A stretch of 28,105 nucleotides of DNA from a virus. The notes below the pieces were generated by a model. That model ran no database searches and was not told where the DNA came from. It saw only the letters and a list, made by a program, of their open reading frames with translations. The first letter of the stretch is position 1, and every line of letters starts with the position of its first letter. The stretch is taken from the IMG/VR virus record IMGVR_UViG_3300042898_000678, positions 1-28,105 of that record, one strand, 5' to 3'. Shown piece after piece: positions 8,436 through 28,105 of this stretch. The translations under genes and the position numbers were made by a program.

Positions 8436-8464
8436 TTTACGGGCTGATGGACCATTTGTTTCAC

Positions 8465-8499: not shown

Positions 8500-8512
8500 T
8501 AATTTTGTTATG

Positions 8513-8582
8513 CAATTAGAAAAATGGGGTCAATAAAAAATAAAAATGTAGAAATATGACAACCACCCCCATTTTCTAATTG
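8513..8582 (-). repeat. Long inverted repeat directly after the last codon of the portal operon
   Basis: The arms CAATTAGAAAAATGGGG (8513-8529) and CCCCATTTTCTAATTG (8567-8582) are complementary over 16 bp apart from one extra A, with a 37-base A/T-rich spacer. The right arm touches the stop codon of the 39-residue ORF. An intrinsic terminator follows 14 bases beyond the left arm. It probably forms a 3'-UTR stem that stabilises, processes or helps terminate the mRNA. Confidence 0.75.
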
Positions 8583-8702
8583 TTATAGTTTCCTGTCGGG
8601 GGAAAGTTTCTTCTTGGAAAAGAGATAACTCTTCAACTTCTCCTCATTGGCGAGAGAAGACTTATACACCTTTGCCAGTTTTATTTCGGTCTGCTTTAGC
8701 AT
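8583..8702 (-). CDS. Very small basic protein (39 residues)
   Basis: The ATG lies two bases after the connector stop codon. The product begins MLKQTEIKLAKVYKSSLANE and is mostly Lys/Ser/Leu with a helical character; no family is recognised. A longer upstream in-frame extension (to 8942) reads as an Arg-rich shadow of the connector gene and is rejected. The tight position after the connector and before the inverted repeat supports it as the operon's last gene, but it is too short to be sure. Confidence 0.45.
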   Translation of the reverse strand: MLKQTEIKLAKVYKSSLANEEKLKSYLFSKKKLSPDRKL

Positions 8703-10531: not shown

Positions 10532-10558
10532 TAAGTATGAAATCCCCTAAAACTGACA
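10532..10558 (-). promoter_or_regulatory. Late promoter-like element for portal operon (TGTCA-N14-CATACTTA)
   Basis: This is an exact copy of the conserved pair. The 8-base box ends six bases before the portal ATG. The box and spacing match the elements at 15108 and 17431, while the spacer sequence differs. Confidence 0.75.
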
Positions 10559-10603
10559 TAGGAAACAATTTTTTTGTGCTTTTCTATAATGAATATATAC
10601 AAT

Positions 10604-11608
10604 ATGACAAAGAAATCAAATAATCTTCTCCTTCACATCAACGGCGGCCTTGGCAAATGCATCATGGCTACCGCAGTTATTGCGTCTTACAAAAGGACTT
10701 TTCCCAATTCAAAAGTGATAGTCGTGTCCGGGTATCCCGAGGTTTTTCTCAACAACCCATACGTTTACAAAAACTTCCCCTTCTCCACGCCTTACCTCTG
10801 GCAGGACTACTACGGCCATGCGGACTGGAAAGTTTCTGCCCACGACCCCTACATGGAGGAAAGCTGGATTAAAAATGAAAATCTTCATCTCATAGATATC
10901 TGGTGTCGCATGTTGGGTGTCGATTCAGTTCAGAAGAGTCCCTTGCTTTATTTCTCGGGTCCGGAAGTAGACGAACTGAACGCCATGATTAAGGTCGATA
11001 AACCCCTGCTGGTCGTGCAATCGACTGGTGGTGCTCATGCAGCAGCCAGATCGTGGACCAGAAACCCGCCGACGGGTGAGTTCGACGAGTTCCTAGTAAA
11101 ATATAAAGACACACACTTTGTTGTGCATCTGTGTCTGCCTGAAACTCCAGTGTTAACCAACGTGCATCAGCGTGTCGACAACTTAAACCGCAGACAAGCT
11201 CTTTGTTTGGTCTACTTTGCTCAGGAAGTTGTTGGGATTGATTCGTATGCTATGCATGCAAGATCAGCCAATCCTGAAGCTGGGCCTACTACAATTTTCT
11301 TCCCGCTTGCCGAGTCAGTAGATAGACTGGGGTACTCAAAAACGGCATGGACAAACATAGTCCCTACTGCTCGTATTCAAGAAATGCTGAAAGACCACAC
11401 TGACTACTTTGCAACTGTGTTTAAGTTGTCCATCGAGAATGTCTCTGACAACTGTCCTGTACCTGCTGGTATGAAATGGTTTAATTTCTCAGTTGGTGAA
11501 GCTCCCCAGGTAAAACACATTTACGGAGACAAATATGGGATTAGTGCTCCAGAAAAATTTGGAACTAGTGGATTACAGAAAGATCACAAAAAAGATCCAC
11601 TATATTAA
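10604..11608 (+). CDS. GT9/heptosyltransferase-like glycosyltransferase
   Basis: This is a 334-residue protein, the only plus-strand gene. It has the GT-B pattern of ADP-heptose:LPS heptosyltransferase-like (GT9) enzymes: HINGGLGKCIMATAVIASYKRTFPNSKVIVVSGYPEVFLNNPYV at residues 11-54. A second Rossmann half starts LLVVQSTGG near 145 and includes the WTRNPP segment. GT9 enzymes use nucleotide sugars; the substrate here is unknown. It could modify host surface glycans or virion proteins. The start at 10604 is chosen because upstream Met codons overlap the likely promoter (TATAAT at 10585). Opposite strand and lone position suggest a separately expressed, acquired gene. Confidence 0.65.
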   Translation: MTKKSNNLLLHINGGLGKCIMATAVIASYKRTFPNSKVIVVSGYPEVFLNNPYVYKNFPFSTPYLWQDYYGHADWKVSAHDPYMEESWIKNENLHLIDIWCRMLGVDSVQKSPLLYFSGPEVDELNAMIKVDKPLLVVQSTGGAHAAARSWTRNPPTGEFDEFLVKYKDTHFVVHLCLPETPVLTNVHQRVDNLNRRQALCLVYFAQEVVGIDSYAMHARSANPEAGPTTIFFPLAESVDRLGYSKTAWTNIVPTARIQEMLKDHTDYFATVFKLSIENVSDNCPVPAGMKWFNFSVGEAPQVKHIYGDKYGISAPEKFGTSGLQKDHKKDPLY

Positions 11609-11745
11609 CCCTGGCCCCGAGAAAGTTTAACGTAGTTGTGGGCAGTCTTAGACTTAGAAGTCTTTGTTTTTGCATGAATGCCCTTACGCTTGCGCTTAGG
11701 CTTAGCCATAAAGGCTGCTATGCTGGAAACTTTAGCTTTAGCCAT
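11605..11745 (-). CDS. Small Lys/Arg-rich conserved phage protein (46 residues)
   Basis: The ATG overlaps the stop of the Gly-rich gene as TAATG, and the stop overlaps the stop of the glycosyltransferase gene on the other strand by three bases. The product is strongly basic (KPKRKRKGIHAKTKTSKSKTAHNY) and ends KLSRGQG. Short proteins with 'HAKTKTS...RGQG' are common near structural genes of Bacteroidota phages; their role is unknown. Nucleic-acid binding or virion association is a guess from charge. Codon phase and the overlap make it a convincing gene despite its size. Confidence 0.7.
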   Translation of the reverse strand: MAKAKVSSIAAFMAKPKRKRKGIHAKTKTSKSKTAHNYVKLSRGQG

Positions 11746-12641
11746 TAGATTTGGTATCTAATAATTAATATCCCACTTCCTCCATTACCCCCTGCAGTGT
11801 TATTTCCACCGCCTCCGCCTCCTGATCCTGTGTTTGCTTCGCCAGATTGTGCAAGAATAAGTGGATCAAAAGAATAACCATTTCCACCTCCACCAGTTCC
11901 ACCAATTCCTGGAATATTTCCAGGAACATCATCCCAAACAGTTCCACCCCCACCACCAGCATAATAACGGGATGTTCCATTCAGATTTATTAATACCCCC
12001 GGACCTCCATTACCTGCGCTTTGTTCATTGCCTGCTGTTGGTCTGGCTCCTGTTCCCCCTGCTCCTCCTCCTCCTGCTCCTGCTGGATTTGAATTAGAAT
12101 TTCTGTTATCTCCTCCAGGGAATCCTTGCCCAGGTGCTGCAGTTCCACCTACCTCATCTCCTCCACCAGATCCAGCAGATGCTCCTCCCCCGCTACCTCC
12201 AAATTTACCGTCTCTATTAAGAGCGGCTGCTCCTCCACCCCCTCCAATAGAAGTTAATCCATTCCAAGTAGAATTACCTCCATTACTTCCTCCATCATTA
12301 GTATCATCAGCAGTTCCAGTTCCTCCGTATCCAATAACAACAGGATAAGTTCCTATAGAAGTTAAAGAAAGAGAAGAGTTCAGTAGACCTCCTGCTCCTC
12401 CTCCTGCTCCTCCTGCTCTAATTGTTAAAAAACTTCCTCCCCCTCCACCGCCACCTGCAATTAATAAATAATCGGCGGAAACTGGAGAGCCGATAGAAGA
12501 TACTACAAAATCACCAGAAGTGGTAAATGTGTGAACTTTATAGTTTATTCCACCATCACTATAGGTGGTAATAGTTCCTCCCGATGCAACAAAGCCTCCG
12601 CCCGCCGGGGCCGCCATAAAAGCAAATGGTGTAGTAAACAT
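11745..12641 (-). CDS. Glycine-rich tail fibre / tip adhesin-like protein
   Basis: This is a 298-residue protein with about a dozen poly-Gly runs (GGGGGGG, GGGGAGGTG and similar) across residues 68-285. They are framed by a start domain (YKVHTFTTSGDFVVSS, then SADYLLIAGGGGGGG) and the C-terminal GGSGILIIRYQI. Such Gly-rich sandwich domains occur at the receptor-binding tips of tail fibres and in marine phage structural proteins. It probably binds the host surface at the fibre end. It lies one base downstream of the long fibre gene and is probably its partner. The poly-Gly runs are coded by diverged, not identical, repeats. Confidence 0.7.
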   Translation of the reverse strand: MFTTPFAFMAAPAGGGFVASGGTITTYSDGGINYKVHTFTTSGDFVVSSIGSPVSADYLLIAGGGGGGGSFLTIRAGGAGGGAGGLLNSSLSLTSIGTYPVVIGYGGTGTADDTNDGGSNGGNSTWNGLTSIGGGGGAAALNRDGKFGGSGGGASAGSGGGDEVGGTAAPGQGFPGGDNRNSNSNPAGAGGGGAGGTGARPTAGNEQSAGNGGPGVLINLNGTSRYYAGGGGGTVWDDVPGNIPGIGGTGGGGNGYSFDPLILAQSGEANTGSGGGGGGNNTAGGNGGSGILIIRYQI

Positions 12642-12642
12642 C

Positions 12643-14490
12643 TTAAGAGAAGTTTAGATTAGCGTTTCCGTAGTAGCCAGTTACACCTGCGATGTAAACC
12701 AAAGAAACTGCGTCCGTTGCTCCAGCTGCGGTAGACAGAGTTGGTGGTGTTCCACCCGGCCAGTCAACATCTGCTCCCCATGAAACCGTCTTGCCTCCTG
12801 TTCCTCCCTGAGTTAGGAAGAGGGTGTAGACTGCCCCGTCGATCGGGTTAGACTTAGTTAGTGTGGTGATGCTGGAAGTTAGAGTTAGCGTCTGGATGTT
12901 AGAGTTGTTCCAGTTCAGAGTTACTGAACCTCCGGTAGAACCAACTGCGTTGGTTAAAGATGCCGCCTGACCAAAAGCAACTAAAGAATCAACGTGCGTT
13001 GTATTTGATCTAACTGAAGTTAGACTATTTCCTAAGACAACTGCATTTTGTATGCCTGTTGCTCCGATAGAAGAGTTTCCTAAGACTATAGTGCCGGTTG
13101 CTCCTGGGAAGATAGTATTTGTATTTCCAATCGCTGTTGAACAAGCTGCTGAAACTAAAGGTGCATTTCCAAAAGCAATAGAATTACATGAATTGTTTCC
13201 AATAATAGCGCAATATCCTAATGCTACAGATTTAGTTGAATTACAACCTACAGTAGAAAAAGTTCCTATTCCTATAGAACCTGTAGAATTACAACAGATA
13301 TCAACAAGAGATCCAACTGCTACTGAAAGATCTGAATTCTCATATATTTCTGATCTAAATCCAGCTACAACAGAATTGTTAGAACTTGAACAAATAAAAC
13401 TAACAGTTCCTATAACAACTCCGTTTAGTGCAGTAGTTGATCCAGCCCCAATAACAACCCCTGAAGTTGTGGGTGCGCAAGAAAGAAATCCAATTGCCGT
13501 AGAAACTCTTTCTACTAAATAACCAGAGGATGACTGAGCATAAGAGCAAGCCCCAATTGCTATAGTTCCACCGTCGAAAATTGTAGTTGCCTGAGCTCCT
13601 ATAACAACATTAAAACCACCACCTGCTTCACACTGTGTGCAAGCATCTGCTCCAATAATAACGTTTTTATTAGCAACCCCTGAATTTGCAGCAACGTTTG
13701 CTCTTGGCCCTATAATAACATGATCATTACCATTATTTAGGTTTCCTGCAGTTGCCCCAATGATAATGTTATTATTACCTGCAGTTCCTGCTGTTGCTCC
13801 AACTTCATTAGAAACTAAAGTATTAGAATAAATTTCTGTAATTGGTGAAATAGTACCAGTACCAGCGGGTCCCGTTGCTCCGTTAATCCCGGATGTTCCC
13901 GATGTGCCGTTTACCCCCGAAGTTCCATTAACTCCCGAAGTTCCATTAACTCCCGAAGTTCCATTAACTCCCGAAGTTCCATTAACTCCCGAAGTTCCAT
14001 TAACTCCAGAAGTTCCCGCAGTTCCCGCAGTTCCCGATGTTCCGCTAGAACCAGCTATTGCCACATACTCCCAAGACGCGTTGATGTCTGGTGGGTTTCC
14101 CCCTGGTGAGATAGTTGTCAAAGCAACATAAGATGATCCGTTGTAGTAAACTACATCGTTCTCGAAGTAGATTGAAACTGAAGACCATCCGCCCTGCCAG
14201 TTAAAGCCAAGCCCAGATGTTCCTGAAGTTCCCGAAGTTCCCGAAGTACCAGACGTTCCGTTACTACCAGCTGCTCCGTTGGTACCCGAAGTCCCCGAAG
14301 TGCCAGAAGTTCCTGCAGTTCCACCAGCTCCCTGAATTATGTTTGCACCAGTTGAATTGATAGCATATAGAGCTGCTCCGTCAGTGTACATCGTGACGAA
14401 TCCAGCAGATGGATTGGAAGGAGTAGAAGGAACTACTGAAAAGTCTATTTGACCGCCGGTTTGACCGACTACGAATTTAGCATTTGCCAT
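12643..14490 (-). CDS. Tail fibre with collagen-like and YadA-head-like repeats
   Basis: This is a 615-residue protein. Residues 1-50 are a probable attachment domain. Residues 57-94 and 148-210 are collagen-like GTSG/GVNGTS triplet runs, which would trimerise. Between them lies a W-rich module (96-144, [24 protein letters not shown]) resembling CBM5/12-type carbohydrate-binding modules. Residues about 238-500 are a series of 'N-x-V-x-I-G-x(n)-A' repeats like the YadA/Hep_Hag trimeric adhesin head. A C-terminal domain (510-615) resembles those of many phage fibres. It should recognise the host cell surface. Cys residues are frequent in the head repeats, which is unusual for this fold. Confidence 0.75.
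13907..14014 (-). repeat. Six 18-bp tandem repeats encoding GVNGTS
   Basis: Four units are identical, a fifth has one substitution and the first is diverged. Each encodes the hexapeptide GVNGTS, so copy-number change keeps the frame and alters the fibre shaft length. Near-identity of units suggests recent expansion by slippage or recombination. Confidence 0.9.
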
Positions 14491-14515
14491 ATTTTAATTT
14501 TTTGTTCTATAATTA

Positions 14516-15100
14516 TTAACAAGTTTCATAAGGACTGAACTGTTGTTGTAAAGTTATACCCTGATCTATGACCAAGATTGCGTTGTTCTCGACCGTGATG
14601 ATTGGACAGTAGGTTGTGGTGTTGTTCTCGACCGTGAAAGTTGTGTATGCCTGAATTGTACAAGGAAATTGGAAAGGAAGAACTCCAGTAACGTAGACGA
14701 TGTTGCGAAGAAATTCGTTGTCTGAAACATATGGGACAAATTCAACTTCTCTTTCGCATGGAATTTCTGCGTATAGAAAAGCCTGTCCTCTGTCAATCTC
14801 AGTTCCCCCGGTCGGTGCAAGAGTCAAACTTGGAATGTTGGTGACTACATAGTCGAAATCGCCATCTGGATAAAGATAAATGTCTCCAGCCAAAGGAAGA
14901 TCCTGACCGTCTACCCCAACTAAAGTTATTTCCAATTCTACGAATCTGGTGTTTCTTCTAACTACAGAAGGAATAACAAGAAAAGGTTCTCTGGAATATG
15001 CGTTAGTAAATTCCATCAAAAAATAATCTCCCGCCGACTGGGTTACCGTGTCAGCGTAGATCACTAAATTGTTTGGGGAATTAGGTGTTAGATTTAACAT
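14516..15100 (-). CDS. Putative virion structural protein of unknown role
   Basis: This is a 194-residue, beta-rich protein. Its first half reads LVIYADTVTQSAGDYFLMEFTNAYSREPFLVIPSVV, a pattern of conserved proteins found beside tail genes in Bacteroidota phages. The C-terminus contains repeated 'TVENN' segments. No catalytic motif is seen. It is the first gene of the adhesion operon, with its ATG seven bases after a CATACTTA promoter element, and it precedes the fibre genes. A tail accessory or fibre-attachment role is plausible from position only. Confidence 0.55.
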   Translation of the reverse strand: MLNLTPNSPNNLVIYADTVTQSAGDYFLMEFTNAYSREPFLVIPSVVRRNTRFVELEITLVGVDGQDLPLAGDIYLYPDGDFDYVVTNIPSLTLAPTGGTEIDRGQAFLYAEIPCEREVEFVPYVSDNEFLRNIVYVTGVLPFQFPCTIQAYTTFTVENNTTTYCPIITVENNAILVIDQGITLQQQFSPYETC

Positions 15101-15107
15101 TCTACAC

Positions 15108-15134
15108 TAAGTATGAAAGTTCAAAAAACTGACA
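15108..15134 (-). promoter_or_regulatory. Late promoter-like element for the fibre operon
   Basis: This is an exact TGTCA-N14-CATACTTA. The box ends seven bases before the ATG at 15100 and follows a terminator-like hairpin. Confidence 0.75.
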
Positions 15135-15148
15135 CATCCCACACAACA

Positions 15149-15179
15149 AACCCCGAGGAAATATCAAAACCCCGGGGTT
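15149..15179 (-). terminator. GC-rich hairpin between the tube gene and the fibre-operon promoter
   Basis: The arms AACCCCGAGG and CCCCGGGGTT pair over 10 positions with one mismatch and an 11-base loop. The minus-strand tail is only moderately U-rich (UUUGUUGUG). It lies downstream of the tube protein stop and just before the next promoter, which suits a terminator. Confidence 0.55.
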
Positions 15180-15222
15180 GTCTGGGAAAATAGATGGCGT
15201 CCCTTTTGTGTGTGAGGACGTG

Positions 15223-15756
15223 TTATGCGTTTACGAACGATGTTCCAGTCAAACTTGCAAGTGTTGAAACTTGATAAGTCATTGCTGGTTCCATTGCCTG
15301 TAGAACGAAAGAGTACTGGGTAGCATCTCCAGGAGCGGTACCAGTTGTGGTAGTTCCTGTTGAAATTACGCAGCCTCGAGTTGCACCAACCAACCAGTAA
15401 AGGCCGTTGTTGTCTTCGAATACTACTCTTGACGCTCTGTTGTAAGCAAGTAGTTGGATTTGTGCTCTCTTCGCAGAAGAAAGGTGTTGAACTGGGATTG
15501 TTACTTCTTGAGTGAAGAATGCGGTTCCGTTGGTGTTAGAGATATTGAAAGTCTCTGTGAACGAAGCTACATCTTTTGCTACTTCGATTTGGTAGAATGT
15601 TCCGGTTGCACCAGACAAGGAAGTAATTCCTGCAGTTGCACCAGCGGTGATTGTACCTGGCTCGAAGTCAGAAGAAACCCACAGTGTCTTGATGCCACCG
15701 ATTGCGTCTAAACAATCTAGGGCTATCGCTGCAGTTAAATTACATGTAGTTGACAT
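15223..15756 (-). CDS. Major tail (tube) protein
   Basis: This is a 177-residue protein that would polymerise into the tail tube. The signature CNLTAAIALDCLDAIGGIKTLWVS (5-28) is typical of tail tube proteins of Bacteroidota phages. So are a strand-rich middle (FTETFNISNTNGTAFFTQEVTIPVQ) and the stretch LVFEDNNGLYW-like at 113-122 (VVFEDNNGLYWLVGATRG), followed by a final MEP segment. The gene stands alone between two hairpins and directly follows the capsid gene, so it is probably highly expressed from the same promoter. Family recognition is by pattern. Confidence 0.75.
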   Translation of the reverse strand: MSTTCNLTAAIALDCLDAIGGIKTLWVSSDFEPGTITAGATAGITSLSGATGTFYQIEVAKDVASFTETFNISNTNGTAFFTQEVTIPVQHLSSAKRAQIQLLAYNRASRVVFEDNNGLYWLVGATRGCVISTGTTTTGTAPGDATQYSFVLQAMEPAMTYQVSTLASLTGTSFVNA

Positions 15757-15783
15757 TGGTTTCTTTTATTTTTTTGTTGGGTT

Positions 15784-15817
15784 AAAAAATTTGGTGGGGC
15801 TAGATTGCTCTAACCCC
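15784..15817 (-). terminator. Hairpin plus U6 between capsid and tube genes
   Basis: The minus-strand RNA GGGGUUAGA pairs with UCUAGCCCC around a GCAA tetraloop, followed by ACCAAAUUUUUU. No promoter element is seen before the tube gene at 15756, so the hairpin is likely a leaky terminator or a message-stabilising stem. Confidence 0.65.
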
Positions 15818-15824
15818 GACCGAA

Positions 15825-16769
15825 TTAGATGGTAGAGACGAACTGAGAGGTGTAAACCGCAGTACCCATTCTAAACGCCGCTAATACATTGACGATATCT
15901 TGAGACGGGTCATAATACATCTTCAATTTGTCTGCGTCGTCGATCAAACCGGTTCCGAAGAAGATGTACTTCTTAGGTCCAAGGATGATGTGGGAATTGC
16001 TAGAAAGTCCTGGCGCACCGAAAATAGTTACGTTTGTACCTGGCCAAATAAATGAAGCAGGAGCGTCACCAGTGTAGTTTGTGATGTTAGGGTATTGGCT
16101 GATTAGAGCGTTACCTTTAGCCATCAAAGCTTGAACTGCGATCGCGTAGTTTGTCATTGAAAGGTACATCACTAGGTCTCTTTCTTGCTTAAGAGCGTTA
16201 GAAAGTTTGTTGATGATTCCCCAGATAGAATCGAATGCAGTTCCAACTGCCAAAGGTACAGTGATACCAGCACCTGTTCCGCCGATACATCCGTTAGCTA
16301 CAGTAGCTTGTGCAAGAAGACCGTCTAGAGAACCACCGTCTCCAGCCCAAATAGTATTTTCAACATATTGAGAAATGTTGTCTACTTTGTTCTGAGCGAT
16401 TCTAGCTTCGAAAGGAACTGACTCAAGGTAAGCAGTTGGGCTAAGCTGTGAAGACAACCAGTATTGGCGTAGATCTTCTGGGCAAAGTTGTTCCTTAAGC
16501 ATTTTGGTTTGTACTACAAGATCAATTTGATCGAATACAGTTGAGTTACCCGTTGCACCACCTGGTCCTACAGTTGAAGCGTTGAAGCCACAAGCGTAAT
16601 CGATGATGTAAGGATTTGAGTTTAGCAAGTTGATTGCAGAAGTACCTGCTGTCTTACCTGCCTGAACAGTCAAGAACTGAACAGAGTAAGGCTTCAAAAG
16701 AGCCTTAGAGATTAGGTCGGTTGATAGCTGGTCCGTATAAGGAGCCAAGCCGGTTAAATCGAATGACAT
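15825..16769 (-). CDS. Major capsid protein
   Basis: This is a 314-residue protein likely to adopt the HK97 fold. The pattern fits capsid proteins of Bacteroidota siphophages: MSFDLTGLAPYTDQLSTDLISKALLKPYSVQFLTVQAG at the start, then INLLNSNPYIIDYACGF. An E-loop-like region (VFDQIDLVVQTKMLKEQLCPEDLRQYWLSSQ, 82-112) follows, and then a C-terminal domain ending VNVLAAFRMGTAVYTSQFVSTI. It lies 22 bases after a scaffold-like gene and close to the protease gene, the usual head set. No cleavable delta domain is fused at the N-terminus, consistent with a separate scaffold. Confidence 0.8.
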   Translation of the reverse strand: MSFDLTGLAPYTDQLSTDLISKALLKPYSVQFLTVQAGKTAGTSAINLLNSNPYIIDYACGFNASTVGPGGATGNSTVFDQIDLVVQTKMLKEQLCPEDLRQYWLSSQLSPTAYLESVPFEARIAQNKVDNISQYVENTIWAGDGGSLDGLLAQATVANGCIGGTGAGITVPLAVGTAFDSIWGIINKLSNALKQERDLVMYLSMTNYAIAVQALMAKGNALISQYPNITNYTGDAPASFIWPGTNVTIFGAPGLSSNSHIILGPKKYIFFGTGLIDDADKLKMYYDPSQDIVNVLAAFRMGTAVYTSQFVSTI

Positions 16770-16791
16770 GGTTTTTTAGTTTTTTATTTTA

Positions 16792-17397
16792 TTAGAATCT
16801 TTTGTTGGTTTTGAAAGATGCTTTAAGAGCTCTCAAGTGATCTACTCTTGCATCTAACGGACTTTCTTTCTCTTCTGCTGGGTTAGCATTGAAGGTAGAA
16901 ATTTTGGTTGCTGCAGGAGTAGCAGACATTTTCTCCATCTTCTCTTTGTAGGAAGCCATTTCTTCTTTGACGATAGCAACTTCTTTAGCAACTTCTTCAA
17001 CTGCTTCCATGCATTGCATAATCATTTTCTTCATGTCTTCTTTCATGATGTCTCCTTCTGTCTTTACTGGCTCGTTTACAGCGTCTCCAGTTGGCGGGAT
17101 GATGTCTCCCTCTTTTGCCGCTTCGATTTCAACTTCGACCTTTGGTTCTGGTTTTTCTACTGCGGTGATTGTTCCGTTGGCGTCAACAGTAACTTTAGTG
17201 CCATCTTCGGTGGTGTGGATACCTTCAGGAGCTGGTCCTTTATCGCCAGTTTCAGATACAACAAAGATCTTCTTTCCTGGTTCAAAAGCTTCCGCTTCCA
17301 CTTTGGTCACACCGTCCTCCAACATAGCTTCAGCCATTTTAACTTCCATTCCCAGAGCAATTCTGATTTGGTTTAATTTTTGTTCGTAAAAATTCAT
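16792..17397 (-). CDS. Head scaffolding-like protein
   Basis: This is a 201-residue, highly charged protein. Residues 1-100 are an acidic region with a small beta module (KIFVVSETGDKGPAPEGIHTTEDGTKVTVDANG) that looks like a degraded processing or lipoyl-like domain. Residues 105-160 form a Met/Glu/Lys-rich coiled coil (IMKEDMKKMIMQCMEAVEEVAKEVAIVKEEM). The C-terminus is basic (KASFKTNKRF). A coiled coil plus basic tail just before the capsid gene is typical of scaffolds. It is first in its operon, 33 bases past a promoter element, the only unit here with a real leader. Confidence 0.65.
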   Translation of the reverse strand: MNFYEQKLNQIRIALGMEVKMAEAMLEDGVTKVEAEAFEPGKKIFVVSETGDKGPAPEGIHTTEDGTKVTVDANGTITAVEKPEPKVEVEIEAAKEGDIIPPTGDAVNEPVKTEGDIMKEDMKKMIMQCMEAVEEVAKEVAIVKEEMASYKEKMEKMSATPAATKISTFNANPAEEKESPLDARVDHLRALKASFKTNKRF

Positions 17398-17430
17398 GGT
17401 TAAACTTATTTTAGATTTGGTTTATGTCTC

Positions 17431-17457
17431 TAAGTATGAATTAAAAACTAATTGACA
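17431..17457 (-). promoter_or_regulatory. Late promoter-like element for scaffold/capsid/tube genes
   Basis: This is an exact TGTCA-N14-CATACTTA. The start codon is 33 bases downstream, unlike the other copies. Confidence 0.75.
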
Positions 17458-17461
17458 TTTC

Positions 17462-19453
17462 TTAGATTGACTTCAGGATCCGAACGACTCTGTCGTACAT
17501 CTCCTTGTCTTTTTTGTACTGCTCGTAGTCTTCCCTGGACATAAAGTTTCCTTCGATAGAAAAGCCGTTGAGCTGGCCAGCCTTGATCTGCTTCCAGACT
17601 GCTGGGTCCTGAACACGCATTGCCACCATCCAGGTTCCTACTGGAACGTCCAGACCATATTTGGTGTTTGCCTTGTCGTCTTCTGTTTCTACTATCCAGG
17701 TTTCCTTGACGTAGGAGTTGGCCTCGTTAGCCCCGTTGTGTTCTACGTTGGTTGATCCGTTGCGAAGTTCACGCATGAACTTTTCTGCAATCTTGGCAAT
17801 TGTTTCTGCAGAAAATTTAACTGCATACCTTTCCTTAGTCTTCTCGTCCACTCTAGGAATCACCATGTCTGGAATCATAGCCGGTCCAATCACGATGCGT
17901 TGATCTTCGGAAGCGAAGAATTGCTTTGACATTTTTGCTTCCGAATGTTTCGGGTGTCCTTTAGGAAGTAGGTCGTTGTCCTGCTTGTAGTCTTTGTCGT
18001 AGCCAGAGCGGTTGCCGGCCAGAATGTTCAAGAAGGAGTTTACTCTTGCCATCGCCCACTGTGATCTTGTCATTCCTCTTTTGCCAGGAGTTCCGACCGA
18101 ATATGCACCAGCTCCTCTCCTCCATACAGCCTTGAGCATACCCAAAGTTGCTTTCTGGGACTCCTGTGGATTTGCTTCGTTGTGCTTCTCAATCTTATCC
18201 TTTAGGGTGGATTCTACTTCTTGAGAAACTTCGATCCCTCCTCTTGTTGTTTTGGTGTCTCCAGGTTCGTTCTTAGCCGAACCAGTTCTGCCTCTTTCCT
18301 CTTTGGGAATTCTTGCCAGAGGTCTGTCGCCCTTGTTTCCAGAAGCAGGTGCTGCAAACTTCTCCATTGCTTCTACAGAAGCCACCCATGCGTCGCAGGT
18401 TCTTGCTGCCGCACACTTGAAGTCAAAAGCTTCGCAGTAGCCTAACTGACCAGCTTCGATTGCGTCGTAAGGATCTTCTCCCTCTGTTCCAATTCCTTCT
18501 GCTATGCAGTCCAACATAGACTCTGAAGTAATAAAGAAAGCACAGTTTCCGCACAGTGCAGTCTTTGCATCTTCTACAGAATCGTTGAACATTCTCGCCT
18601 TAGCCTTCCAGTATCCCTCCGATGGACGGTTGGGATTTAGTGGACCATAGTTTGCTATGTCGATTGCTTCCTGTCTGTGTGCTAAATTAACTGATATGTC
18701 CTGGGTTGCTTCTGGACACTCTTCGGCCATCTTCATCTTCCGCTTTGGTATTTCGTCCACATACACGGGAAGAGCAGAAACATCATATGACATTTCCTCT
18801 TTGTCGATCTGCTTTAGCTTTCTTTCTGCCCATGCAATCCCCGCATCTCCACCCCAAGCATCCCACATCAGCTTGCCACAGCCTTCGCCGTAGGGTGTAT
18901 CAGAGTTCTGCCTGTGTCTTTGGAATGCAGACATGCGTGCAATAGTTTCTCTGGAGATGGGTTCCCGATTTGCCAGCTGGTTTGCACGTGCTTTGCCTGG
19001 ACCCATTCCGCAGTCTCCCCATCCGTTCTCCTCAGCCCAAGCCAAGGCTCTCTTTGCTGCATTTACTGCTGCCTCTGGGTAGTCGGTGTAAGTTTCTGCA
19101 AACTTTTCAGCTGCAGATTTAACTGGGATGCAGTTTGGTGCCCCGTTCTCATTTAGCCCATAGGGTTCGTAACCTTCCCAGCATGGATTTTCTATGTCCA
19201 TCTTTTCTCTGTATGTGCTATAGCAGATTGCTGCAGCCTGGTCGGTTTCATACCCTTCGTCTCCTACTAATTTAGCAATGCAACGGGGAATGAATTCGTC
19301 TTCTGATTCTCCTGCAGAGGGCTCGACAAATTCTTCACGTTTGAAGGCTAGCCAATTTCTCTCTATGGCCGGTACTTCCACTAAGGAAATAGCAGAGACC
19401 CCGGACTGTTCCAGGTCGTCTATAATTTCTAAATCGATAATTTTGTTTTCCAT
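17462..19453 (-). CDS. Multidomain prohead protease (XkdF-like, Peptidase_S78_2)
   Basis: This is a 663-residue protein, much longer than a simple prohead protease. Residues 511-640 match the XkdF type: IVIGPAMIPDMVIPR, then VKFSAETIAKIAEKFM, H572 in NVEHNG, ETWIVE, VPVGTWMVAM and S632 in GFSIEG. H572 and S632 are the likely catalytic pair. Upstream lie a DEF...C-I-A...DQAAAIC module (51-78) and a helical domain with YPEAAVNAAKRALAWAEENGWGDCG. A Cys-rich module follows near 300-360 (CGNCAFFITSE, then GYCEAFDFKC), and then a DUF5824-like GKRGMTRSQWAMARVNSFL segment. It would mature the capsid; the other modules are unexplained. Confidence 0.8.
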   Translation of the reverse strand: MENKIIDLEIIDDLEQSGVSAISLVEVPAIERNWLAFKREEFVEPSAGESEDEFIPRCIAKLVGDEGYETDQAAAICYSTYREKMDIENPCWEGYEPYGLNENGAPNCIPVKSAAEKFAETYTDYPEAAVNAAKRALAWAEENGWGDCGMGPGKARANQLANREPISRETIARMSAFQRHRQNSDTPYGEGCGKLMWDAWGGDAGIAWAERKLKQIDKEEMSYDVSALPVYVDEIPKRKMKMAEECPEATQDISVNLAHRQEAIDIANYGPLNPNRPSEGYWKAKARMFNDSVEDAKTALCGNCAFFITSESMLDCIAEGIGTEGEDPYDAIEAGQLGYCEAFDFKCAAARTCDAWVASVEAMEKFAAPASGNKGDRPLARIPKEERGRTGSAKNEPGDTKTTRGGIEVSQEVESTLKDKIEKHNEANPQESQKATLGMLKAVWRRGAGAYSVGTPGKRGMTRSQWAMARVNSFLNILAGNRSGYDKDYKQDNDLLPKGHPKHSEAKMSKQFFASEDQRIVIGPAMIPDMVIPRVDEKTKERYAVKFSAETIAKIAEKFMRELRNGSTNVEHNGANEANSYVKETWIVETEDDKANTKYGLDVPVGTWMVAMRVQDPAVWKQIKAGQLNGFSIEGNFMSREDYEQYKKDKEMYDRVVRILKSI

Positions 19454-19459
19454 TCTTAC

Positions 19460-19486
19460 TAAGTATGTTTTTCTTACAATCTGGCA
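19460..19486 (-). promoter_or_regulatory. Late promoter-like element for the protease gene (one mismatch)
   Basis: This is TGCCA-N14-CATACTTA, with the box six bases before the protease ATG. The upstream half lies inside the last codons of the tape measure gene, so a coding constraint may explain the mismatch. Confidence 0.6.
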
Positions 19487-21678: not shown

Positions 21679-21684
21679 GTGTGT

Positions 21685-24489
21685 TTAGTATGTGATGTTG
21701 ACGTATGCTGTATAAGTATCAGAAGGGTTGATTACTGCCGGAAAGATTGCTGAAATTGGTTGGTAAGTTCCAGACCTTCCTGCTGTTGCTCCAGTTACCC
21801 CGTTAGTTGCTAATGAAATTTCTTGAGAGACTAATGCTGTTCCTGGTGCATAAGAACTTGACAGAACAACTTTTATCCCAAAGCCTGTCGGAACATTAGG
21901 AACAAGTGCAAAGAAATTTTGATCTTGCTCTCCGTTGAATGTAAAGTTCTGGATTGTTGTGTAGGTTCCACCCGTGCCTCCTGATGCTCCTTGAACTTCT
22001 ACCGTAGTTATTGCAGATTCTATGAGAATAGACTGAACATCATTTACAATTTCTAGGGTCAATGATGCTCCCGTTACTCCACATGGTCCGATGTCTGCTG
22101 CAGTAAATCCTGAAGGAAGAGCATTGATTAGAGGAAAGAGCATACACAAAGGTGCTGCGCAAGAAGAGTCTACCAAGGTGACAGACCGAAGGTTATTTTC
22201 GCAGTCCACGTAGGTGTAGGTGGCTTGGCCTGTTTCAGATGCAACGTTGTTGTTGCACAGTGAAATTGTTCTACAGGTAGTTCCCTCTGTTCCTCCTGTT
22301 GCAGCCAGAGGAATTGGTCCTGGGATAGCCACCAGTGGAACTTTAACTAAGTCAACTCTGACCAAAGCAGTTTCTCCTAAAACATAGTCAGAGATCTTCT
22401 GAATGAAATACCAGGTGTCCTTGATCCAGATGCGGTCGTTGAATCCAAGTTCTAAAATGTCTGCCGGATCTAATCTTAGAGTCAAGGAGACTTTTCTGTT
22501 GTAAGGGTCGTAAAGCCAGTCCACATATTCACCCCAGTAGACTGTGTATAAATCCTGGGAGGTGTTGCCCACCAAAGTAGAATCTGCCGACCAAGGCTGT
22601 TCTTTAGATAAGAAATTTAAGTTTACCGTAGAAAACAAATTCGGAGGCCAAGATGAGTATGGAGAAACTAACGGATAAGAGTTCTGGGCCTGCCCAGTTC
22701 CTGATCCAGAAACCCCGTTGTATAGATACCATGGGATTGGATTAGATTGTAGTCCGTTGTAGTGGTACAGTCTTGGTCTTGGAACGATGGGTTCTATCCT
22801 TGCAGAGTTGGGTTGGTTTTGGTTTCCCGGCTGAAGTCTGCCCAGAGTTGGAAAAACCCAGTTAGGATAAGAAGTTGTTCTGGACGGAATGGACTGGAGA
22901 GGATTAGCTCCAAACTGCACGTCGATCGGCTGTTCGTCCCGAATAAGTTTGATGCCTGAGTCGAACTGACGATACCAGTAGTCGGCTTTGTTCTGTTCTT
23001 GATACTGTTTGTTCAGCCAGTCTTCGTCTTCTTGTGCTCCGAACTTTAGAATTCTCTGTTGCTCAGCAAAGACGGGGGAAGACTGTAGATCTGCAGACCC
23101 GTCGTAGAGTCTGGTCCAGTCTCGGATTTCTCCTGCTTGAACCCAGTCGATCCAGGGTTCTATGACAAAAGTCTTCTGGGTCACCCTAGAAGGTTCGAAC
23201 ACCAAATTGAACATGCGAACCAGAGAACGAATAAAGTCTATCTTCTTGAGGATTGTTTCGTCCGGAAGGAAAGAAGACATCACGACCTGGTTTGGTCCGC
23301 TGATGCAGTTGAACGCAGAATCAAAGAAGACCGAAAAGGGATTTCCAAAAGACAAGTTTTGAATTCTAACATCTACTGTGTCCCCTTTATTTAGAGAGAT
23401 AGAACCAGAAGTCCAGTTCCAGTTTCTTAGTGCTGCCCCAAAAGTTGTCAGCACTCCTGAATCATAAACCAAGATGTTGTTGATGTAGGCCTTGACTCTA
23501 AATGCTGTATTTTGCTGATCCTCCTGGTTGGGTCCTCTTGCACTTCCTGACGCCACAAATTCATAGGATCCGTTTGTCGGTGCAGTCCAGACGTGTGTTC
23601 TGGTGTTGAATGCTTGGTCTAAGTTGTTGAACGTTGTGGAGAAAGGAATAATAACTTCTGCAGACAGATCAACTGTAAATGTCCCAGCAGTTACCTGACA
23701 AGTTCCGGATGGGTTTAGAAAGTAGGGTCTTGCCACAGAATCCGACACAAAGTAGAGAGACTGAAAGTAGTCCGATTCTAAAAACGTAGATGTGTAGGTG
23801 TAGTCAGCGTCGGAGAGAATCTTGTCGAACAACCACTTCACTCGGATTGCAGGTTTCATCTGCTCCATCCTAATTGCCGCAGTTGCACCGATGGTGAAAG
23901 ACTGTGCATAAGCATTGGATAGGGTGGCCTGCAGAGGAACACCTTCGTTAGGTCCTGTTCCGTAGGTGTAGCCCCACTCGCAAAGGGGATACAGAACGTT
24001 GCCATCTTTTAGTCCTGCAGTTGCTCCTCCAGTTGCCGCCCAAGATCCAGTTACATTCGCATAGGACAGGACGTGATTTAGTTCAGAAGCGTCGATGGTG
24101 TTCATTCCATCTTCTCCGATCTGAGTAGACAAGTTTGAAGTGTCCCCCAGGAAGTAAACGTCATATTCTATGTTGCCGGTAAGGTCATTGGTGACAACAG
24201 ACTGCAAATTTAGATTGCCCAGGGAAAAAAGAGTTCCGTCCGATAGGATCCAAGCCTGTGCTGCTGCAGCCGGATTGAATGTGCTCCCGTTGACTGAGTA
24301 GACGTCCTGAAAGAATTGGGTGTTTGGTCCAATGCCGGGAAGTCTAAATGTTTGCGAGAAGAAAGAAGATGGGGTGAACGGATTTATCTCCGCCACTGAG
24401 AGGTTCATCTTCACGGGAGAATCTTCTGACAGTTGCAGAAGAACTGTTTCCCCCTGTGGGTTTACTGCATATAGTTGGACTTTTGACAT
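21685..24489 (-). CDS. Large tail / baseplate-type structural protein
   Basis: This is a 934-residue, beta-rich protein beginning MSKVQLYAVNPQGETVLLQL, with the segment INPFTPSSFFSQTFRLPGIGPNTQFFQDVY at 35-64. This N-terminal pattern is shared by large virion proteins of Bacteroidota phages. Central parts include a beta-sandwich-like stretch (WTAPTNGSYEFVASGSARG, then LNKGDTVDVRI, about 300-375). Cys-containing C-terminal segments follow. A role at the tail tip, as hub or baseplate, is inferred from size and its place between the tail chaperone and tape measure. No enzymatic motif is apparent. The ATG is one base from the previous stop. Confidence 0.6.
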   Translation of the reverse strand: MSKVQLYAVNPQGETVLLQLSEDSPVKMNLSVAEINPFTPSSFFSQTFRLPGIGPNTQFFQDVYSVNGSTFNPAAAAQAWILSDGTLFSLGNLNLQSVVTNDLTGNIEYDVYFLGDTSNLSTQIGEDGMNTIDASELNHVLSYANVTGSWAATGGATAGLKDGNVLYPLCEWGYTYGTGPNEGVPLQATLSNAYAQSFTIGATAAIRMEQMKPAIRVKWLFDKILSDADYTYTSTFLESDYFQSLYFVSDSVARPYFLNPSGTCQVTAGTFTVDLSAEVIIPFSTTFNNLDQAFNTRTHVWTAPTNGSYEFVASGSARGPNQEDQQNTAFRVKAYINNILVYDSGVLTTFGAALRNWNWTSGSISLNKGDTVDVRIQNLSFGNPFSVFFDSAFNCISGPNQVVMSSFLPDETILKKIDFIRSLVRMFNLVFEPSRVTQKTFVIEPWIDWVQAGEIRDWTRLYDGSADLQSSPVFAEQQRILKFGAQEDEDWLNKQYQEQNKADYWYRQFDSGIKLIRDEQPIDVQFGANPLQSIPSRTTSYPNWVFPTLGRLQPGNQNQPNSARIEPIVPRPRLYHYNGLQSNPIPWYLYNGVSGSGTGQAQNSYPLVSPYSSWPPNLFSTVNLNFLSKEQPWSADSTLVGNTSQDLYTVYWGEYVDWLYDPYNRKVSLTLRLDPADILELGFNDRIWIKDTWYFIQKISDYVLGETALVRVDLVKVPLVAIPGPIPLAATGGTEGTTCRTISLCNNNVASETGQATYTYVDCENNLRSVTLVDSSCAAPLCMLFPLINALPSGFTAADIGPCGVTGASLTLEIVNDVQSILIESAITTVEVQGASGGTGGTYTTIQNFTFNGEQDQNFFALVPNVPTGFGIKVVLSSSYAPGTALVSQEISLATNGVTGATAGRSGTYQPISAIFPAVINPSDTYTAYVNITY

Positions 24490-24490
24490 C

Positions 24491-26422
24491 TTAGTAGCTT
24501 TGGGTATTTGCTGGTAGAGATTCTATGAAGGAGACAAAGTATTGGAAGAGATTCTCTCTGCGGATGGTCTGCACTGCATATTCTGCATCTTGAATTACAA
24601 CTGCCACTGGCTGGGTTCTGCCAGGTAGGTAGGCTATCACAGACGGAGAAGCGAACATGTCTCTCAACCAAGCAGATTGAGCTTCGGTTAGCCAGTCCGT
24701 CGAAGCAGTCCAAGTGTTAGTTAGATCGTTCCTGAACACTGTTGTTCCAAAACGTGCAGGCTGGTTGTCCTTGACGGAGTAGCTTGCTGCGGACCAGTAG
24801 CCTGGGAGTTTATATAGGGTAGATCTGCTGGCCTGCTGAACAAAAGTGTTTCGCTTGATGAACGTGTACCAATCTCTGCCGCCCAGTGGATTAATCCAGG
24901 TAAACCTGATCGGCTCGAAGCCCCAACAGTTTGTGTCGTCTATGGTCAGACAAATTTCTTCGGACATTGCATCTTCTCCAAGTGCACAAGTTCCTGCGTT
25001 CGCCCATGGGTACAGGGCTAAACAGATTTGGTCGAACTCAGAAGGTAGGATTGCCCGTGTGATATTCCAGAAGTTGCTAAAGCAGCCAAACTTACCACAA
25101 GAAACTGTGGTGGCCGAGAACCAACGTAAACCTAGAGCAGTATAGTTCTTAGTGGAAGTGTGTGTGATGTTGTAGAGATTGTAGCCCCCAGAGTTGGACA
25201 CAGTGAATGTGCCGATGATTTCAAAGTGTGCTGGGTTGTTAGATCCACCTACTGAACCCCAAAGTTGCATAGCAGGATAAGAACCACCAAAGGTGTTCTC
25301 AGATGGGATCTGGATTGCTATTTGGTCTCCAGTCTTTACCTGCATGTTTCGGTAGACAAGTTCAGAAGAACCTGTGTAGCCTGTTCCAAAACCTGTTGTA
25401 CAGTTGCTGTTGAACTGCGGAGTTATGAAAGCATCGTCGTTTGGAAGAACCACAATCAGAGGGTTGGCAGCTGGGGTTAATCCAGTATCGTGATAACCAG
25501 GGAAGACATCTGGAATAGACTGGGCTGTGCAGCCGAAGTTTCCTGGACCGAACAGAACTTCCTGATCCCTAGTGATGCTGGTGATGTCTGCTGGGTTGAT
25601 CTTGAACGAGTACAGATAGTTTACCGGTCCAGATGCACCAGTTGCCAATGGCGGCAGAGTAGAACAGTTTGGCCAGATTCCCCCGTTGGCTGTGGTAGCC
25701 ACGTAGTCTGTGTGTCCAACAGGATTTCCGTCCAAAGACACAGAAGCCTTCATTGCGTAGGGAAACACGTAGCCGGTTACCCCAGTGTCGAAGTTCCGGT
25801 TGAGCCAGGTCAACGTGAAGTCTTCGTCGGATCTAATTGTCTGTGGTGAGTCCGGACAGTTGGTTAGAAACTTTCCTTCTGTGTCGGGGGTAATTCCACC
25901 AAGACCCATTTCATACTTTAGAACCCCCTCTCCTCCAAGAGCAAGCCAAGTGTAGTAGTCTTCTGGAGACTGAGCAGCCGCCCAAGCTATCACGGGTGTC
26001 GTGTAGTTCGGTGCTGGTCTAAAGTTTCCATCTGCGTACAGACCATATGCTGGTTCTCCAACAGAACCAGATCCGTTGTAGATAACAGGAGTTCCTGTGG
26101 GAGTTGTAGAATATTCTTCCCCAGCCAAAATGTAGACGTTGGTCGCCAGATAATCTCCTGAGTAGAATGGGTTGTCCGAGAGCATTGGAAGATTCAAGGG
26201 AATTTCCAGCTCTGCCGCCACCAGCGCATTGACGTCGATTAGACCCTTTCCTTCTGGATTGGGCGGCACCTTGAAACGCACTTTAGTCTTCCCGTAGACA
26301 TACACGTCAAAGACATACCTGAACTTATATTGGGTGGTCTGGTCAGACTCTATCATCCAGATGATTGGATTGTAGGCTGCCGACCAGAGCGGTGGAGATT
26401 GGAGAGTATTGGTGATTGCCAT
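24491..26422 (-). CDS. Large tail-associated structural protein
   Basis: This is a 643-residue, beta-rich protein. Its N-terminus (SAAYNPIIWMIESDQTTQYKFRYVFDVYVYGKTKVRFKVPPNPEGKGLIDV, 14-64) is a recurrent pattern of Bacteroidota phage virion proteins next to the tail hub gene. The C-terminus (WINPLGGRDWYTFIKRNTF, about 508-526, then LTNTWTASTDWLTEAQSAWLRDMFASPSV) is also characteristic. Function is unknown; a baseplate or tail-tip component is likely. The ATG overlaps the stop of the chaperone's -1 frame as TAATG, which supports that frame as biologically used. Confidence 0.6.
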   Translation of the reverse strand: MAITNTLQSPPLWSAAYNPIIWMIESDQTTQYKFRYVFDVYVYGKTKVRFKVPPNPEGKGLIDVNALVAAELEIPLNLPMLSDNPFYSGDYLATNVYILAGEEYSTTPTGTPVIYNGSGSVGEPAYGLYADGNFRPAPNYTTPVIAWAAAQSPEDYYTWLALGGEGVLKYEMGLGGITPDTEGKFLTNCPDSPQTIRSDEDFTLTWLNRNFDTGVTGYVFPYAMKASVSLDGNPVGHTDYVATTANGGIWPNCSTLPPLATGASGPVNYLYSFKINPADITSITRDQEVLFGPGNFGCTAQSIPDVFPGYHDTGLTPAANPLIVVLPNDDAFITPQFNSNCTTGFGTGYTGSSELVYRNMQVKTGDQIAIQIPSENTFGGSYPAMQLWGSVGGSNNPAHFEIIGTFTVSNSGGYNLYNITHTSTKNYTALGLRWFSATTVSCGKFGCFSNFWNITRAILPSEFDQICLALYPWANAGTCALGEDAMSEEICLTIDDTNCWGFEPIRFTWINPLGGRDWYTFIKRNTFVQQASRSTLYKLPGYWSAASYSVKDNQPARFGTTVFRNDLTNTWTASTDWLTEAQSAWLRDMFASPSVIAYLPGRTQPVAVVIQDAEYAVQTIRRENLFQYFVSFIESLPANTQSY

Positions 26423-27221
26423 TATCTTACTTGATGCTTAGTTTGTTTTTGAATTTCAAGATTGCGTTTTGTAATCTCGTTTTTTCTATTGGCAAGCCAG
26501 TTGAAGGCTTGGCGAACTTTGAGCTTCGCTGATTCTGTAAATCTAAGAGGATCGTCTCCAGATAGGGTATTGAGTAGTCCCCACCAAGATCTAGCCGTGT
26601 TAGGGATTGAAGGCGATCCCGGTCTTCTTGGGAAATCCAATTCATCCTCTCGCTCTTGGACAAATAGTCCAGCGTATTCCTTAAAGAGGAGTGTGCGGAC
26701 TGCAAAAAAAAAGCATTGGCAGAACGGATTGCAGACACGGGCAGATCTAAGAATTCTTGAGCCCTCTCTGCTGATTTAACAGTGTCATAGTCTTCTAAGA
26801 TCATAAATTCTCCACTTTGTTTTACAATTGGTCTGTAGAGAATTGCTGCAGCCTCGTGCATTCTGGACTGAGAATCTTTAGAGGAAAAGAAAACTTCTAA
26901 GTCAGCAAATTCTCCTACTGTTAACTCCTCGATTTTAGGTAGTCCATACTTTACTCCTTTGAATTCTAGGATGGGCTGGATAACATCTGTGTTTCCCTTC
27001 AGGGCGTCTATTTTTAGCAGGGCTTCTTCCCAGATGATCAACCAGTCTTGAAACTTTATTTTCTTGAGTAGTTCTATCGGACATCCTGTTAACACCTCTA
27101 CAATAAAGAATTCTTTGTCTTTGTCCTCGGCTGCAAGAGTTGCCTGTAGGTCGTAGTATCTTCTGATGGTTATGTCTTCGAAGAAGTAGGTCTTGCCTTG
27201 TATCTTAAAATTTGGTTTCAT
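26422..27221 (-). CDS. Tail assembly chaperone, predicted -1 frameshift product (G-T type)
   Basis: A -1 slip at 26706-26712 would join the first 172 residues to a 94-residue extension in the other frame, about 266 residues in all. The extension begins FAVRTLLFKEYAGLFVQERE and contains ARSWWGLLNTLSGDDPLRF, then KVRQAFNWLANRKNEITKRNLEIQK. This resembles T-type extensions ('GW...LA.GD..K......L......L....'). It ends in TAA overlapping the next ATG as TAATG, matching other junctions in this genome. No separate start is needed: the -1 frame is open back through the slippery site. A homopolymer sequencing error (T9 for T10) is the main alternative. Confidence 0.6.
26427..27221 (-). CDS. Tail assembly chaperone, 0-frame product
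   Basis: This is a 264-residue protein starting MKPNFKIQGKTYFFEDITIRRYYDLQATL, the pattern of the G-type tail assembly chaperones of Bacteroidota phages (a KL-x-DW-like FQDWLIIWEEALLKIDAL segment at about 57-75). It would coat the tape measure during tail assembly. At codons 170-173 (GCT TTT TTT TTG) there is a slippery U run. The 0 frame continues open for another ~91 codons (SSLRNTLDYLSKSERMNW, then YLETILLDLQNQ), unlike lambda G, which stops soon after the site. The ATG overlaps the previous stop (ATGA). Confidence 0.7.
   Translation of the reverse strand: MKPNFKIQGKTYFFEDITIRRYYDLQATLAAEDKDKEFFIVEVLTGCPIELLKKIKFQDWLIIWEEALLKIDALKGNTDVIQPILEFKGVKYGLPKIEELTVGEFADLEVFFSSKDSQSRMHEAAAILYRPIVKQSGEFMILEDYDTVKSAERAQEFLDLPVSAIRSANAFFLQSAHSSLRNTLDYLSKSERMNWISQEDRDRLQSLTRLDLGGDYSIPYLETILLDLQNQRSSKFAKPSTGLPIEKTRLQNAILKFKNKLSIK
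26706..26712 (-). promoter_or_regulatory. Candidate -1 frameshift slippery site U_UUU_UUU
   Basis: A perfect X_XXY_YYZ heptamer in the reading frame lies inside a T9 run. Four bases downstream, AGTCC/GGACT and an inner UCCU-CUUUA-AGGA could form a nested stem that stimulates slippage, though it is weak. Confidence 0.6.
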
Positions 27222-27613
27222 TTTCTGTTGGTAATTGCCTTTGCTAATTGCTTAGTGGTTTCTTTTGCTATGAGTTTACTAATTTGCTGTAGGGTTGCTT
27301 TGTCTAAGTTGGTCCAGTATCTCGGCTTTATTCCTCTTTTGCCTGGTCCTGGTCTTGGATTCCATTTCTTGTTTGGCTGCTCTCCCTTATAGTAGGGCTT
27401 TGTTCCTTTGTCGGTAAACTTTCCATATTCCAGGAAAGAAGATTTGAACTGAACAGCCCCTTTACTCTCATACACTTTTACGTCTATGGAGGCTTTTAGT
27501 TCCCCGCCGGGCTTCTTCTTGGTTCCCTTTGCAACAGGAACTTGAAACCTTAATCTGTTCTTGATTAGTGTTTCTATTCTTTTGAAAATCCCATCTAATT
27601 TTACTTCTGCCAT
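27218..27613 (-). CDS. Neck / tail completion protein, HK97 gp10-like
   Basis: This is a 131-residue basic protein. It starts with an amphipathic helix (GIFKRIETLIKNRLRF). It carries the gp10-type core: a strand pair (LKASIDVKVYESKGAVQFKSSFLEYGKFTDKGTKPYYKG, about 39-77) and then KRGIKPRYWTNLDKATLQQISKLIAKE, where gp10 proteins have '..RPFL.PAL'. Such proteins join head and tail. It lies between the tail terminator-like gene and the chaperone, the usual place. Its ATG overlaps the previous stop (TAATG). Confidence 0.65.
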   Translation of the reverse strand: MAEVKLDGIFKRIETLIKNRLRFQVPVAKGTKKKPGGELKASIDVKVYESKGAVQFKSSFLEYGKFTDKGTKPYYKGEQPNKKWNPRPGPGKRGIKPRYWTNLDKATLQQISKLIAKETTKQLAKAITNRK

Positions 27614-28083
27614 TAGAATGCTGCGTCACATAAGTTGAACGGAGAATTGATCTGCACGTCAAAGATCGCCGCCCATCCTGTTAGATTGTTGTTGTAAGCT
27701 TCGACGAACGGGGTGATAGAAGCTATCGGTGTTTGTATTTCGTAGGGAACACTTGCACCCGAAGACATGATGACCTTAGAGAAAATATCTTGCATGATCA
27801 TCAGGGTTTCGTTGTGTGTGTTCACCTGGAGATCCTCTTCGTTCTTGGCTATATCTGCCACGATGAACGTGAAGGTCAGAACGAACTTACCGAACCTGTC
27901 CATCTCTGCATTCTCAGGAACTAAGAAGCAGAAAGGGTACCGTTGGAAAGTCTCTACGTTCGTCTGCATGTCTATGTCGCTGGGTTGCCCAACTTGAAAA
28001 TGGCGAACGCCAAGGTGCGAAAGACATAGCTCACCGAAGGTCTCGACGAACTGTTTGTATGTGGTAGGATTAGTTAGTGCCAT
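27613..28083 (-). CDS. Tail terminator / neck protein-like
   Basis: This is a 156-residue protein, first gene of the tail operon. The C-terminus (EAYNNNLTGWAAIFDVQINSPFNLCDAAF) and the segment DLQVNTHNETLMIMQDIFSKV are typical of a conserved Bacteroidota phage protein placed between the neck and tail genes. By position and size (the tail terminator group is usually 120-160 residues) it may cap the tail tube. Direct evidence for this role is lacking. The ATG is six bases past a CATACTTA box, implying a nearly leaderless message. Confidence 0.6.
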   Translation of the reverse strand: MALTNPTTYKQFVETFGELCLSHLGVRHFQVGQPSDIDMQTNVETFQRYPFCFLVPENAEMDRFGKFVLTFTFIVADIAKNEEDLQVNTHNETLMIMQDIFSKVIMSSGASVPYEIQTPIASITPFVEAYNNNLTGWAAIFDVQINSPFNLCDAAF

Positions 28084-28089
28084 TTGCTA

Positions 28090-28105
28090 TAAGTATGATT
28101 TGCTC
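28090..28105 (-). promoter_or_regulatory. Late promoter-like box for the tail operon, cut by the window end
   Basis: CATACTTA lies on the minus strand six bases before the ATG at 28083. The expected TGTCA would fall beyond the last base of the window. Confidence 0.6.

Follow-up and report, generated by a model that had tools for sequence, protein, structure and literature searches.

The 28.1-kb IMG/VR virus record that we analysed as a whole (here called the window) carries, in front of its structural genes, a family of paired sequence boxes that probably serve a small tailed phage as late promoters. Their probable reader is an ECF-like sigma factor of the phage itself, and most of the resulting mRNAs are predicted to be leaderless or nearly so. 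The upstream box has the consensus TGTCA (N-G-N-C-A), the downstream box the consensus (C/T)ATACTTA, and the spacing between them is fixed at 14 nt. The paired boxes, the strict spacing, the orientation relative to the genes, the restriction to structural units and a hairpin at the end of the capsid unit together argue for late promoters.

Along the minus strand, from position 28105 downward, the tail operon is followed by a protease gene (Peptidase_S78_2), a scaffold-like gene, the capsid gene, a gene for a 194-aa protein, a collagen-like fibre gene, the portal gene, genes for a VapE-like helicase and a primase, a sigma-like gene, a small gene positioned like one for the small terminase subunit, and the large terminase gene. 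The portal gene (9350..10525, minus strand, as all genes named here unless stated otherwise) matches phrog_33693 with an E value of 3e-35, and the portal protein has relatives in the Nonlabens (Persicivirga) phages P12024S/L, a kinship that points to a Bacteroidota host. The window is probably a small uncultured tailed phage of Bacteroidota; a capsid-based search of bacterial genomes for hosts or prophages found none. The second gene of the portal operon (8705..9346) belongs to DUF6712 and the head maturation protease (17462..19453) is XkdF-like, both according to Pfam. In case of the scaffold-like gene (16792..17397), which lies upstream of the capsid gene and is recognized by position and size, family searches including Pfam and phrog gave no convincing match, and the probable major capsid gene (15825..16769), recognized by position and by its conservation in 134 viral loci, matches phrog_11320, a family without known function; scaffold and capsid are thus probable names that rest on position, and the scaffold, capsid and tail roles are assigned partly by position and size. 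The 194-aa gene (14516..15100), an open frame without a family match in the family search, is the first of the fibre operon, and the collagen-like part of the fibre gene contains short tandem repeats (GGAACTTCGGGAGTTAAT) at 13880-14060 (minus strand). Between the fibre and portal units lies the lone plus-strand gene (10574-11608), which is divergent from the portal promoter and without a match in Pfam. Two hairpins (8460..8585, minus strand, z -5.0), the second followed by a T run, mark the end of the portal operon and separate it from the replication genes. The frame of the large terminase is broken within the P-loop at 450-510 (minus strand), where SGGR and RASGKS, beside a run of six G, do not share a frame, and in most relatives this gene is a single open frame of about 414 codons; the break may stem from an error of sequencing or assembly, or the frameshift may be real.

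All paired sites of the window lie on the minus strand. The pair TGTCA-N14-CATACTTA is exact at the three positions at which a first, sequence-only reading had seen it, namely before the portal operon (10532-10558, 6 nt to the ATG at 10525), before the 194-aa and fibre genes (15108-15134, 7 nt to the ATG at 15100) and before the scaffold-like/capsid operon (17431-17457, 33 nt to the ATG at 17397, the sole long leader among the window sites). The second of these stands behind a terminator-like hairpin at the end of the capsid operon (15140..15195, minus strand, -19.2 kcal/mol, z -2.6), which is placed just upstream of it. A TGCCA variant with one mismatch is found before the protease gene (19460-19486, 6 nt to the ATG at 19453), where it shares sequence with the 3' end of the tape-measure gene. 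The portal and protease sites are present at the same place in 9 relatives each, the fibre site in 10. At the window edge, the downstream box CATACTTA (28090-28097) stands 6 nt before the ATG (28083) of the first gene of the tail operon, an open frame (27613..28083) whose orthologues stand behind a paired site in 8 relatives. Its upstream box is past the contig end; relatives have CGGCA-N14-CATACTTA at this place, with the upstream box within the 3' end of the terminase gene or immediately behind it, a region that falls outside the contig here, and it is likely that the 28090 site is a full pair as well. The downstream genes are those that had been named for these sites, i.e. portal, fibre, scaffold/capsid, XkdF-type protease and tail, with the 194-aa gene standing first behind the fibre site.

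The exact pair does not occur in dinucleotide-shuffled window sequence, and CATACTTA alone is found six times, with 0.55 occurrences expected from shuffles. A general scan for E. coli-type promoters gave hits no more numerous than in shuffles. The pair is also unlike the Bacteroidota consensus TTTG/TAnnTTTG, as had been stated, since the invariant bases of its weight matrix differ from that consensus as quoted in PMC6847099. The expectation that the replication half is free of the motif holds for the starts of the replication genes; the downstream box occurs in this half once, as the sixth CATACTTA (1788-1795) lies within the sigma-like gene. There it encodes His-Thr-Tyr and forms part of TACCA-N14-CATACTTA (1788-1814, minus strand), and relative G003 has an exact TGTCA-N14-CATACTTA at this place; the arrangement probably reflects coding constraint. 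An autoregulatory promoter at this position was considered and rejected, as the box is coding sequence for these three residues and is lost in G004, G006, G008 and G009.

Relatives were gathered by protein similarity. The capsid protein led to 134 viral loci (100% to about 52% identity among those kept) and the sigma-like gene to 107 loci; twenty records were examined whole, and ten near-complete relatives with capsids 74-97% identical form the core set. The site statistics below refer to the 11 core genomes (the window and these ten), which include close relatives, so that the sites are not all independent. A scan with the exact pattern across all viral contigs gave 79 hits, which were left out of the evidence because a collection of this size should yield many matches by chance; the contigs used were restricted to those found through proteins.

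Absence of the pair at the corresponding places of related phages, or equal frequency inside genes, would speak against promoters, and neither is seen. The pair precedes the same structural genes in ten relatives, and 49 of the 51 paired sites in the 11 core genomes precede a gene start, with a gap of at most 10 nt to the ATG in 39 of these 49. When the genome under test was left out of the weight matrix, each core genome still yielded 3 to 8 sites above the threshold, most of them ahead of the portal, protease and scaffold genes, the 14516-type gene and the first tail gene. The reversed pattern, used as a control in the core relatives, gave no site. As had been claimed, it is the pair that is conserved and not the spacer: a comparison of genomes at five orthologous sites gives identities of 86-96% for the boxes and of 39-66% for the central part of the spacer. 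In the protease promoter and, in several relatives, the tail promoter, the upstream box falls into the last part of the gene ahead of it and is kept nevertheless. YATACTTA occurs 75 times in the 11 core genomes, 43 times at 3-9 nt before an ATG (counted if the ATG opens a frame of 90 codons or more), and 100 permuted octamers occur there 0.33 times on average, the sole permutation with 14 occurrences being the same motif shifted. The upstream box stands at spacing 14 in 49 of the 75 occurrences, and any other spacing is represented at most 3 times. When the octamers adjoining start codons in these genomes are listed without bias, CATACTTA ranks first. The proposal of a phage-specific late promoter family is thus supported by the conserved boxes, their position before structural operons, the diverged spacer and the non-host consensus.

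The candidate reader is encoded in the replication-terminase operon, which is without the motif. The gene (1379..2017, minus strand) codes for a protein with two helical domains and an HTH in region 4. Its match to Sigma70 region 4 is weak (E 0.007) and under the curated Pfam cut-off; within the family, 10 of 18 members match Sigma70_r4_2, with a best E value of 2e-5. Sigma70 region 2 was not detected by sequence in these 18 members, and a PDB sequence search with the sigma alignment gave no match. The AlphaFold2 model has helices within residues 3-78 and 97-160, joined by a linker (82-96) of low confidence or disorder, and the best solved structures in Foldseek are ECF sigma factors, aligned over both domains with a probability of about 1.0 and E values of 2e-3 and weaker. 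The model thus has sigma2 and sigma4 domains and no sigma3, which is the ECF architecture, and its region 4 superimposes on the E. coli sigma-E/-35 DNA complex with a TM score of 0.78 and 1.7 A. All ten core relatives have the gene, as do most of the more distant records, and the records without a match are shorter; the motif and the sigma-like gene occur together. By fold and context, the protein is probably a phage ECF-like sigma factor, and it is the most likely candidate for the reader of the late promoters.

The sigma family tree splits in two with an SH-aLRT support of 99. In the first clade, the members in which a portal promoter was found have YATACTTA, usually 3-7 nt from the ATG. In the second clade, TGTCA-N14 is kept, and the members with a recognisable portal promoter mostly have TATATTTA at 22-25 nt from the ATG (L249, L239, L254, L253, L256 and L258), other members TATATCTA before another late gene. 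G011 is mixed and has TATACTTA 18 nt before the portal ATG. The downstream box thus changes along with the sigma clade, as would be expected if sigma factor and promoter change together, but the link rests largely on one deep split and may reflect shared descent instead.

The following mechanism would account for these observations. The replication-terminase operon is probably transcribed first, by a host sigma factor, and would yield the phage sigma factor. This protein would then redirect the host RNA polymerase to the paired sites, with TGTCA (N-G-N-C-A) serving as the -35 element and (C/T)ATACTTA as the -10 element at spacing 14, and would thereby activate the tail, protease, scaffold-capsid, fibre and portal units, five late units in all. 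Transcription would begin at the AUG or 0-2 nt before it at most sites, and the scaffold-capsid unit would retain a leader of about 20-35 nt. Some of the sites could be read by a host sigma factor as well.

Which other explanations are conceivable? Phage activators such as P2 Ogr or T4 MotA offer a different logic, according to which the sites would still be late promoters, the upstream box would bind a phage activator, and host sigma-A would read a degenerate -7 element in CATACTTA. A fixed distance between site and box is also possible with an activator, and a small HTH protein is encoded at 8244-8435. Nevertheless, such an arrangement appears unlikely, as the upstream box is neither a palindrome nor a repeat, a sigma-like two-domain protein is conserved together with the motif, and the downstream box itself differs between the sigma clades. 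As for the host consensus, TATACTTA agrees with TAnnTTTG (PMC6847099) at some positions, but the invariant C and the final A of the box do not fit it. It is very improbable that CATACTTA is a translation-start element of a ribosome-binding or Kozak-like kind, its proximity to the ATG then being due to ribosome binding. Most sites do lie 6-8 nt before the ATG, and A-rich upstream nucleotides are used in Bacteroidota (PMC6847099), but the box stands 25-36 nt upstream of the scaffold gene, and in the second sigma clade its gap to the ATG is 22-25 nt; it precedes the first genes of late units and not the many internal gene starts, and a translation signal would leave the TGTCA box, with its constant spacing of 14 nt, unexplained. 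Least credible are phage repressor operators or packaging or recombination signals, roles that often use repeated conserved boxes but fit poorly with the strict gene orientation, the strict place relative to start codons, the restriction to structural units and the diverged spacer.

For the proposed sigma-dependent late promoters, the distance between the -10 box and the ATG is of special interest. The sequence-only reading had located and described the sites correctly and had missed both the sigma gene and this fixed distance, which is 6-8 nt at most sites, as is expected for leaderless transcripts. In the scaffold/capsid operon it is 25-36 nt, which is kept in relatives, and longer gaps are also found at two tail-gene sites (G004, G010). 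If TACTTA occupies -12 to -7, transcription would start at the A of the ATG with a gap of 6 nt and 1-2 nt before it with gaps of 7-8 nt; if the box is placed like the host -7 element, a leader of 2-4 nt would result. The geometry predicts that most late mRNAs are leaderless or nearly so. This would be unusual in F. johnsoniae, where 87% of the mRNAs with a probable promoter have predicted leaders of more than 10 nt (PMC6847099). In PMC3160421, leaderless genes are recognized by a -10-like signal situated about 12 bp ahead of the start codon. We tentatively suggest, with somewhat more doubt than confidence, that a family of Bacteroidota phages makes its whole late program, except for the scaffold-capsid unit, leaderless by placing the start codons directly behind the promoter of its own ECF-like sigma factor. 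In the sister sigma clade, neither the -10 box nor the predicted leader length is the same. If true, leaderless late mRNAs could part phage translation from that of the host, whose phylum ignores Shine-Dalgarno sequences, and the system would be a clean test case for whether Bacteroidota ribosomes start well on leaderless mRNAs.

With respect to early genes, two copies of GACCGTATATTAT, each with TATA and ACAAA behind it, stand ahead of small early genes (7358-7370 and 7662-7674, minus strand) and perhaps represent an early promoter type; a search for the repeated GTATATTAT early-promoter family in relatives with a loose pattern gave no clear result.

Late promoters served by a sigma factor of the phage are an already known kind of system. 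In the literature searched, which covers few subscription journals, we found no description of the motif, of late promoters or of their reader in such phages, and as far as found this box pair and its geometry are new. The analysis yields a concrete candidate sigma-promoter pair together with two diverged versions for recognition studies, and a compact candidate for an orthogonal expression switch in Bacteroidota.

How does this system compare with known ones? In T4, gp55 reads TATAAATA at late promoters that have no -35 box, and gp33 and gp45 are needed. The candidate sigma factor of the window would likewise direct the host polymerase to late genes, and the -10 octamer is similarly A/T rich; unlike the T4 sites, which consist of TATAAATA alone, the sites here have a conserved -35 box at spacing 14, and no partners like gp33 or gp45 were identified in the window phage. 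The Bacillus phage SPO1 uses a sigma cascade of gp28 and gp33-34 with middle and late promoters that have -35 and -10 boxes; a phage-made sigma factor replacing that of the host, and the presence of both boxes, would be shared, whereas the boxes and the sigma family are other ones. With the ECF sigma factors of solved structure (sigma-E, SigH, SigL), the model of the window protein shares the two-domain sigma2-sigma4 architecture, but it is too diverged for Pfam cut-offs, and its presumed promoter is not of the GGAAC / CGTC kind known for ECF factors. Bacteroidota housekeeping promoters also have an A/T-rich -10/-7 element near the start, but neither box fits TTTG / TAnnTTTG and the invariant positions differ (PMC6847099). 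In TA-led leaderless bacterial genes, the -10 element likewise lies about 10-12 nt before the start codon (PMC3160421); that survey concerned host genes, whereas here the geometry is that of a phage late regulon.

Among cultured phages, the flavobacterial Nonlabens phage P12024S (NC_018271; L284 in our collection) encodes a Sigma70 region 2 protein, gp33, shortly before the terminase, and has CGTTAMTA exactly 4 nt (N4) before the ATG of six genes, including the portal operon (167-179, 3019-3031, 5400-5412, 23949-23961, 25189-25201 and 26790-26802). These sites often have AAAACAAA about 15-20 nt further upstream. The motif would represent another phage promoter family that is coupled to start codons and distinct from that of the window. 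Two other cultured phages of marine or Arctic Flavobacteriia, Polaribacter phage P12002L and Flavobacterium phage 11b, have no comparable start-codon motif, and the layout is therefore not general. Homology of P12024S gp33 to the window sigma factor is unsupported, the hhalign probability being 1.3. What the window phage and P12024S have in common is a sigma-type protein encoded shortly before the terminase and a motif of their own whose distance to the ATG is fixed, and what sets them apart is the motif itself.
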